Positions 28,832-30,691 of a DNA stretch of 64,000 nucleotides are shown here, in pieces. Made by a program: the position numbers and the translations under genes. The notes beneath the pieces were generated by a model. It was not told where the DNA came from and searched no databases. It saw only the letters and a program-made list of their open reading frames with translations. This DNA comes from Halosimplex rubrum. GTDB taxonomy: Archaea; Halobacteriota; Halobacteria; Halobacteriales; Haloarculaceae. Numbering within the stretch: position 1 is the stretch's first letter; each line of letters starts with the position of its first letter. Location of the stretch: the NCBI RefSeq assembly GCF_013415885.1, contig NZ_CP058910.1, forward strand, positions 930,001-994,000, given 5' to 3'.

Positions 28832-28895
28832 ACCGGAGACTGGGGACGGTCGGACGTAAAACCACGCGTCGTCCCTAAAGCACCAGTGATAACCC

Positions 28896-29561
28896 TCAAC
28901 TGCCAGTAAAAGCTACAGCCTCAACTGAATCAACAGACGTATTTTCAATGATCAACTTCTGACGGTTTCCGTTTGCTAAGTCGTCAAGATCTGTCGTAGC
29001 TAATTCTGTCTCGTCTGAGGTCCTTTCTCCCAGGTCATGCGCATCTACACAGACCCAGTAGTCTTCTTCTTTGTCCTCTCGAATGCTCCGGAGGCTTTCT
29101 TCTAGGTCTGGATAATCTTCCTCTCTTGTCCAGATCTCAACTAACTCATCAAATTCATCCTTACGGCTGCTCACATGGGATTCCATTCCTCGAGCAAATT
29201 CACGGAGGTCGTCAACGACATCCCTTGGATTAGCAAATTGCTTTCCTTCGTAGTAGTGCTTCAGGTATTTCCAAGCATCATTGGATCTTCTATCGAGGCG
29301 ACGACGAACCTCTTGCAGATCCATTGGACCCATTTCAGAATCATAATTCTGTTCGATATACCGGACATGTTTTAGGACTGCAGTCCGGTGAGCTTGGATT
29401 TTCTCACGTTTTTTCGCTGCGTAAATTGATTCAATATCTTCTGTTAGATAGAACTCTCTCGCCTCGTCTTCGAGATATTGCCTACATAACCGGTGGTGAA
29501 GATCAACAGGGAAACAAAAACCGAGTACGAGTCCTTTGTCTAAAAAGGCGTTATCTGTCAT
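28896..29561 (-). CDS. PIN-like nuclease domain protein (AT-rich cassette, gene 2)
   Basis: The 221-aa protein has a PIN-type beginning, FLDKGLVLGFCFPVDLHHRL, with an acidic residue (D8) at the metal position. The helical middle part (YAAKKREKIQAHRTAVLKHV) follows. The C-terminal part is typical, YWVCVDAHDLGERT then ETELATTDLDDLAN with two or three more acidic positions. This fits a metal-dependent ribonuclease of the VapC type but larger. Base composition is visibly more AT-rich than the neighbours, as in transferred genes. It follows gene 1 after a single base. Assignment is by eye, so moderate confidence. Confidence 0.6.
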   Translation of the reverse strand: MTDNAFLDKGLVLGFCFPVDLHHRLCRQYLEDEAREFYLTEDIESIYAAKKREKIQAHRTAVLKHVRYIEQNYDSEMGPMDLQEVRRRLDRRSNDAWKYLKHYYEGKQFANPRDVVDDLREFARGMESHVSSRKDEFDELVEIWTREEDYPDLEESLRSIREDKEEDYWVCVDAHDLGERTSDETELATTDLDDLANGNRQKLIIENTSVDSVEAVAFTGS

Positions 29562-29562
29562 C

Positions 29563-30489
29563 TCACTCGTTTGCTCCAGTTAGAATAACCTCATCGTAGC
29601 TTTCAGCGAGTTCGTAGAAAATATCGCTTGTCGGGCGCTCGTCAATCAACCCTTGACGAACCGATTCCAGCCTTGTATCTAGTTCCTGAATCTGACTTGG
29701 CCGTTCGTTTCTCCAATCTTCCAAGCGGTCTTCCGGGATATTCTGACGGTACTTAAACCTTAACGTAACTTGGCTGAGTTTCTCGATGAAAAACTCTAGG
29801 AAGGCAAGTTGCCTTCCTGGATGAGAGTCCTCTTCAACAAGCATCCGCATTGTGTCATCCCACGTTAAATAATACTCGTAGAGTTCATCATACTCGTCTT
29901 CAGGGTAAGCAAGAAACATTTCGTCAAGGAATAATTCCGTCTGTGAGGGCCCTTCCATGAACGCATCTAACGATTGAATACCCCCTTCTCGGGCTTGAGA
30001 CTCAGCTGAAAGATGCCACCTGAGATCGCTGTATTTCTCAATGAACCCTTCGTGCGCATATTCTCGATACTGAAGCTGTTCAAGTTGTTTTCTGGTCTTC
30101 TGGCCGTGTTCCTGTACAACAGAATTTGCTGCTGAGAAGATCGCGTTCTTAAGATCCTCTTCAAGATCGAAATCTGCTTCACTAACTTGATTTGCGGGAT
30201 AGTATGCTTGTCCCTGCTGATGATTAGCACTCGGTGAGAAAATTACGGACTGATTTATTGAATGTTCTTCAACCACCTCACCGTATTTATACCAATGGCG
30301 AGGAAATCCAATATTGATCTCGAATTCTTCAATTAGTTTTCGATCGGTGAGGCAAGACAGTTTGAAGAATTTTGTTCTTCCAGTTTCTTGATTGTCTTGC
30401 TCTCGCCGCTCCATAAGAACCCGATATATGAGGTACTCAGACGCTCCCAAATTATATTCGCTGCCCTCCGATCCGTCTGAGTCTGACAT
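29563..30489 (-). CDS. Hypothetical protein, partner of PIN-like gene (AT-rich cassette, gene 1)
   Basis: The 308-aa protein has no recognised domain. It is charged and mostly helical, with Tyr/Glu-rich stretches such as PEDEYDELYEYYLTWDD and a conserved-looking block, FKLSCLTDRKLIEEFEINIGFPRHWYKYGEVVEE. That block resembles a start of a winged-helix or nucleotide-binding regulatory domain. Codon use is as AT-rich as gene 2. ATG at 30489 is chosen; a GTG at 30537 would extend it by 16 residues. Position upstream of a PIN-like nuclease suggests an antitoxin-like or targeting role, unproven. Confidence 0.65.
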   Translation of the reverse strand: MSDSDGSEGSEYNLGASEYLIYRVLMERREQDNQETGRTKFFKLSCLTDRKLIEEFEINIGFPRHWYKYGEVVEEHSINQSVIFSPSANHQQGQAYYPANQVSEADFDLEEDLKNAIFSAANSVVQEHGQKTRKQLEQLQYREYAHEGFIEKYSDLRWHLSAESQAREGGIQSLDAFMEGPSQTELFLDEMFLAYPEDEYDELYEYYLTWDDTMRMLVEEDSHPGRQLAFLEFFIEKLSQVTLRFKYRQNIPEDRLEDWRNERPSQIQELDTRLESVRQGLIDERPTSDIFYELAESYDEVILTGANE

Positions 30490-30691
30490 ATATTCGGGTC
30501 TTTCTCCCGTCTTATCTGAACATACCCGGTCAGCCACTAAAGTGTATGCGGATTTGATAGCATAAAAAGGACCGATCAGCCAGATTATTACGAGTTAAAT
30601 CGGATGTGCTTGATTCCACAGGGTATTCGTCCGTGTGTCCCTCTCCCAGCGAAGGGAAAGGTATAGCAACGTCGCTGTCCGACGTACGCGC

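Follow-up and report, generated by a model that had tools for sequence, protein, structure and literature searches.

Two adjacent genes next to leuS in Halosimplex rubrum, here called A and B, are best read, with moderate confidence, as a type II toxin-antitoxin-like unit in which A restrains the RNase B. The copy in the window (the whole 64,000 nt stretch of DNA analysed) stands alone, and relatives of the pair are built into defence loci, which in a sister branch mostly encode a short Argonaute. Toxicity of B, binding by A and an antiviral effect are inferred.

A foreign two-gene cassette in the leuS spacer

The insertion has the following parts:

29563..30489, minus strand: gene A, ORF of 308 aa, predicted antitoxin-like partner, co-occurring with B (model pLDDT 87)
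28896..29561, minus strand: gene B, ORF of 221 aa, PIN fold with helical insert, predicted RNase (pLDDT 92.3)
28832..30691, no strand: intergenic spacer between leuS and a binding-protein gene, with the insert; six of the seven congeners compared have an empty spacer of about 130-143 bp

A is encoded first, and a single base (29562) lies between its stop codon and the ATG of B. The G+C content is 0.447 for A and 0.444 for B, versus 0.658 in the flanks (a sliding profile was also run). An initial annotation, made from the sequence alone, had described two genes one base apart with a base composition unlike that of their neighbours, located next to the core gene leuS. Both claims held (44-45% versus about 66% G+C), and comparison with congeners shows that the cassette is an insert in the leuS spacer. 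The binding-protein gene beside the insert belongs to PF01497. In 6 of 7 Halosimplex congeners it points away from leuS across a spacer of 136-149 bp, counting both start codons, versus 1866 bp in the window. Conservation of the flanks with the congeners reaches up to about 28867 and resumes from about 30630. Neither A nor B was present in any of the seven congeners, and no convincing terminal repeats or target duplication were seen around the window insert. The low G+C content, together with near-identical copies of the pair across families, demonstrates horizontal transfer; the window cassette is a horizontally acquired, foreign two-gene unit.

The seventh congener (G089, locus L146, 5569-6306) has another insert in its leuS spacer. 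It consists of a 129 aa ORF, followed by a PemK/MazF-like protein that matches PF02452 over almost its full length (E 0.00036, just under the curated cut-off). The 129 aa ORF has no Pfam match, and its winged-helix look was judged by eye only. Because L146 has this other, PemK-like insert there, the spacer probably takes in toxin-antitoxin-like modules.

A and B are inherited together

In a family survey of 146 genomes, A was found in nine and B in the identical nine. The nearest copy is on a plasmid of Halobacterium hubeiense, with 78% identity for A and 71% for B. A profile survey of 391 Halobacteria genomes matched B in 33 and A in 51. Co-occurrence elsewhere, which the initial annotation had named as a check, held: the genes are adjacent in all 35 aligned Halobacteria pairs, always with A first and with a gap of -4 to +20 bases. 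The trees of A and B agree, with a distance correlation of 0.92 (best of 2000 permutations 0.27) and 18 of 31 splits in common. Since the trees agree and near-identical copies of the pair occur in three families, we conclude that the pair moves as a unit, and many copies are on plasmids. Values of dN/dS were 0.05-0.26 for both genes in the clusters that allowed an estimate; between the window and the Halobacterium hubeiense plasmid relative, dS was saturated. The pair thus meets the type II toxin-antitoxin criterion of an adjacent, co-inherited and horizontally mobile gene pair.

Solo A genes without B exist in Halorussus-type loci, and broken pairs also occur. The solo A genes (L023 7980-8909, L024 7992-8942, L086 9859-10746, L087 9668-10594) have a divergent or shortened C-terminus, and two of them adjoin a Rieske-domain gene and ABC transporter genes. 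A search for B remnants next to solo A genes gave only weak, scattered matches. A virus origin of the pair was rejected: phage records held no B relatives, and viral contigs, queried with single sequences, held no relatives of A or B.

B has a PIN fold, with altered active-site residues in the window branch

VapC was the top structural match of the B model (Z up to 12.6), and PIN proteins filled nearly all top rows. The fold test for the PIN superfamily is therefore met, and some relatives of B match PF01850 (best E 0.001). B has a PIN fold, as predicted by the model. Failure to predict a nuclease fold had been named beforehand as a refuting result; the PIN fold was predicted with high confidence. 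The statement that B is larger than VapC also held, as its 221 aa include a long helical insert. Protein-only RNase P was considered as the identity of B and rejected (fold match Z 8.7 versus 12.6 for VapC; family matches absent).

The positions of the active site were read from alignment columns:

29538..29540, minus strand: D8 codon, invariant PIN acid
29424..29426, minus strand: codon 46, encoding I; the DT branch has E here, the second catalytic acid
29061..29063, minus strand: D167 codon, invariant, likely third-motif catalytic acid (inferred from position)
28989..28991, minus strand: D191 codon, the fourth acidic site, where many relatives have N

Among these four site residues, D8 and D167 are invariant in 35 aligned homologues. 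T at residue 9 goes with E at position 46 in all rows except one with a gap, while in the window branch K9 (N in one neighbouring protein) is paired with I or V at position 46. The rows with K9 form a single branch with support 94. Of the acidic active site (D, E, D, D/N), the window protein keeps D8, D167 and D191 and has I for E46; the E is kept in most other branches. The PIN-type arrangement of acidic residues claimed earlier held and was corrected in part: the second acid is replaced by I46, and the third is likely D167 rather than D173 of the DAHD motif, as inferred from invariance and from the position at a helix start. It is likely that B cuts RNA; this is inferred, as there are no RNase or toxicity data. 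Since I stands at position 46 in place of the expected catalytic E, and K at position 9 in place of T, the RNase activity of the window B is uncertain.

A carries a remote Panacea-like domain

Two parts can be distinguished in A:

30055..30450, minus strand: Panacea/SocA-like N-terminal domain, residues ~14-145, by hhalign against PF13274 proteins, with weak fold matches to DarG and LmuC
29566..30054, minus strand: helical C-terminal part, residues ~146-308, by secondary structure of the model; proposed to bind B, as inferred by analogy to helical extensions of PanA (PMC10440598)

In the model (pLDDT 87), the N-terminal part is mixed and the C-terminal part helical. Comparison of the A family with eleven PF13274 proteins of the same phylum by hhalign gave a probability of 94% over 120 columns with a score of 57.2; 150 column shuffles scored at most 15.5, the reversed profile 13.7 and unrelated families at most 18. 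The close half and the distant half of the A family each match the PF13274 profile separately. Neither the window A nor any scanned family member matched PF13274 by the Pfam cut-off. This profile comparison shows that the N-terminal domain of A is distantly related to Panacea/SocA (PF13274, DUF4065), a remote relationship below the level of Pfam. The initial annotation had recognised no relatives of either gene; searches of A and B against Pfam, PADLOC, NCBIfam and PHROGs likewise gave no match above noise, and the remote relationships to Panacea (A) and PIN (B) were found.

Foldseek aligned residues 13-154 of A best to the antitoxin DarG (E 0.035, Z 7.5) and to LmuC, a Lamassu protein. The scores are weak, and this likeness is possible and no more than suggestive. 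A sequence search for a solved Panacea structure gave nothing useful. Panacea domains are known as antitoxin domains in which neutralisation of the toxin is often the task of additional helices or domains, and the core was proposed as a sensor (PMC8832971, PMC10440598). The division of labour inside A that we propose below is based on this published work.

Relatives of the pair at Argonaute and other defence loci

In a distant sister branch, A is 13-19% identical to the window A, and the pair is usually placed back to back with an operon of two genes, which encode a short Argonaute and a REase-APAZ-type partner. The short Argonaute was identified by PADLOC (pAgo_I, E 9e-131) and by the PDB argonaute 9qbp (E 6e-85), and its partner by PADLOC (Aga_REase_Archaea, E 2e-112); the partner proteins of PDB entries 9om4 and 9qbl matched the latter less strongly. 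Among 341 genomes, short pAgo_I was present in 29, distant A in 33 and both in 28 (Fisher p 8e-35; this value overstates independence, since genomes are related and copies move horizontally). The distance from pAgo to A was 1.55-3.2 kb at 28 places. The layout pAgo, REase-APAZ, divergent A, B was found at 24 loci, with B in all 24; a few have a pAgo that is split or truncated where the contig ends.

Four-gene Argonaute loci (24): L089-L091, L094-L097, L100-L102, L212-L221, L225, L227, L228, L231

Four annotated plasmids (L240-L243), including pNG600 of Haloarcula marismortui, confirm this layout; on them the Argonaute, nuclease-APAZ and A genes are labelled 'hypothetical protein', as is B wherever its annotation covers the whole gene. 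A is absent from two short pAgo loci, L226 and L229. Two further loci have an AfAgo-like protein in place of the short pAgo (L092 5120-10509, L093 4941-10391), and at L099 (5981-14245) the pair lies within a DISARM operon, in the order DrmE - A - B - DrmA on one strand. The sister branch is thus linked to short Argonaute and DISARM. As for the window copy, its genome gave no match to pAgo_I, and the criterion for a short pAgo component, a site with pAgo and an APAZ-type protein, is met at the 24 sister-branch loci but not by the window copy.

In the close branch, two pairs (L110, L112) are in a DUF499/DUF1156 island and one is beside a BrxX-like methyltransferase (L108 11259-15350); by sequence reading, many others adjoin housekeeping genes. 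Neighbourhoods were called with a rough gene caller, and some neighbour names rest on sequence reading alone.

At L092 and L093, A-B is followed by the AfAgo-like Argonaute, split into 331-332 aa and 436 aa, and by a 432-438 aa protein without a PADLOC match. The loci L220, L225 and L230 are decaying, with pAgo, REase-APAZ or A split or truncated and B still open, an observation that bears on the guard role considered below.

Proposed function and alternatives

In the reading we prefer, the cassette would have been acquired horizontally as a two-gene toxin-antitoxin-like unit. Free B, a PIN-fold ribonuclease, would cut cellular RNA and arrest growth; A, encoded first, would bind and restrain B, most likely via its helical C-terminal part (there is no complex model), and the Panacea-like N-terminal domain would have a sensing or regulatory role. 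B might then be released by viral infection or when a linked element is lost. RNA cleavage, toxicity, neutralisation by A, the roles within A and the trigger are all inferred. Several points speak against a toxin-antitoxin reading: A exceeds the usual size of an antitoxin, some A genes occur without B, the window branch has I46/K9, the Panacea match is remote, and there is no experiment.

The pair could instead be an addiction or guard module of the CreTA kind, which arrests cells losing a linked element (plasmid, Argonaute or DISARM) and is not itself antiviral, the window copy being stray or domesticated. Many plasmid-borne copies, the back-to-back position with the Argonaute operon, the CreTA precedent in haloarchaea (PMC9458426, PMC8501985) and the open B at loci with a broken pAgo or REase gene fit this view. 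We nevertheless consider it unlikely: L220 and L225 survive with a broken pAgo and intact A and B, where a strict guard should kill, and many copies adjoin housekeeping genes. It is less probable still that B, with A as specificity factor, is a non-toxic processing enzyme maturing certain RNAs, e.g., Argonaute guide RNAs. The near-obligatory short Argonaute link in one branch and the existence of RNase P-like processing enzymes among PIN proteins support this idea. However, for several copies, the window copy among them, Argonaute is missing from the surroundings or the genome, DISARM is associated too, there is no Argonaute-specific constraint, and Panacea is an antitoxin domain (PMC8832971).

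We give as little weight to the possibility that B of the window branch is no longer a nuclease, A-B having evolved from a toxin-antitoxin module into a pair that regulates or sequesters. The loss of E46 together with T9K in one monophyletic branch is in favour; D8, D167 and, in the window, D191 are retained, however, and in one cluster of the branch purifying selection acts on both genes. A bolder reading, which we can neither favour nor discount, takes the Panacea-like/PIN pair as a standing part of haloarchaeal short-Argonaute immunity (guard, second effector or guide-RNA maker) in an undescribed four-gene defence system, with the window copy as a stand-alone offshoot with a remodelled PIN site.

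The initial guess of a toxin-antitoxin or antiviral system is supported, with toxicity, neutralisation and antiviral effect inferred only; it is strengthened by the Panacea-like A, the PemK-like module of the congener and the association of sister-branch pairs with short Argonaute and DISARM loci.

Comparison with known systems

Like PanAT (Panacea, PF13274), A-B consists of two genes, one with a Panacea-related domain and an extension; in both, the partner varies between lineages. A-B differs in that the domain of A is too divergent for Pfam and the partner is a PIN protein, which was not found as a named partner in the Panacea literature searched (supplements excluded). With VapBC it shares a small adjacent gene pair and a PIN fold with the D8/D167 positions. 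However, B has 221 aa with a helical insert, A is a Panacea-like protein of 308 aa and not of the short DNA-binding VapB type, and the second acid is lost in window-branch B. The VapBC criterion, a VapC-sized PIN toxin with a short VapB-type DNA-binding antitoxin, is not met. Short Argonautes with a nuclease-APAZ partner (SPARDA type) are back to back with sister-branch A-B in Halobacteria, but the two-gene systems described for them do not include A-B, and the window copy lacks an Argonaute. CreTA, known in haloarchaea, is likewise a toxin-antitoxin-like unit beside a nucleic-acid-guided defence locus; CreTA itself is RNA-based and Cascade-controlled, whereas both A and B are protein-coding, without data on a control link.

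In the open-licence literature (supplements excluded), neither a PIN protein as partner of Panacea nor the position of A-B beside Argonaute was found to be reported, and prior mention is possible. Nor was the family or its Argonaute link found described, supplements and most subscription journals being outside the search; the pair may be a so far undescribed module for growth arrest or defence. Of the new points, the association of the sister branch with short Argonautes is the strongest. Should A and B function in the proposed way, the Panacea antitoxin family extends to PIN partners in a form that domain models miss, and nearly all haloarchaeal short Argonaute loci gain a toxin-antitoxin-like partner. 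A-B with Argonaute would then offer a directly testable example of guided immunity linked with a toxin-antitoxin-like unit made of proteins.

Relatives of B in methanogens

Relatives of B in Methanobacteriaceae, the family of a Methanobrevibacter MAG, match it by hhalign with 99.8% over 198 columns, helical insert included; window-type and methanogen B proteins are clearly one subfamily. Some B match was obtained in 61 of 139 Methanobacteriaceae genomes, many of them partial. The comparison gave no support for homology between the helical half of A and the helical partner in methanogens (P 0.33, within the shuffle range). In 25 of 27 loci read, the methanogen B directly follows this helical protein, mostly of 160-210 aa and without a Pfam match, and there are up to several B relatives per genome (L002 5816-6971; L152-L181).
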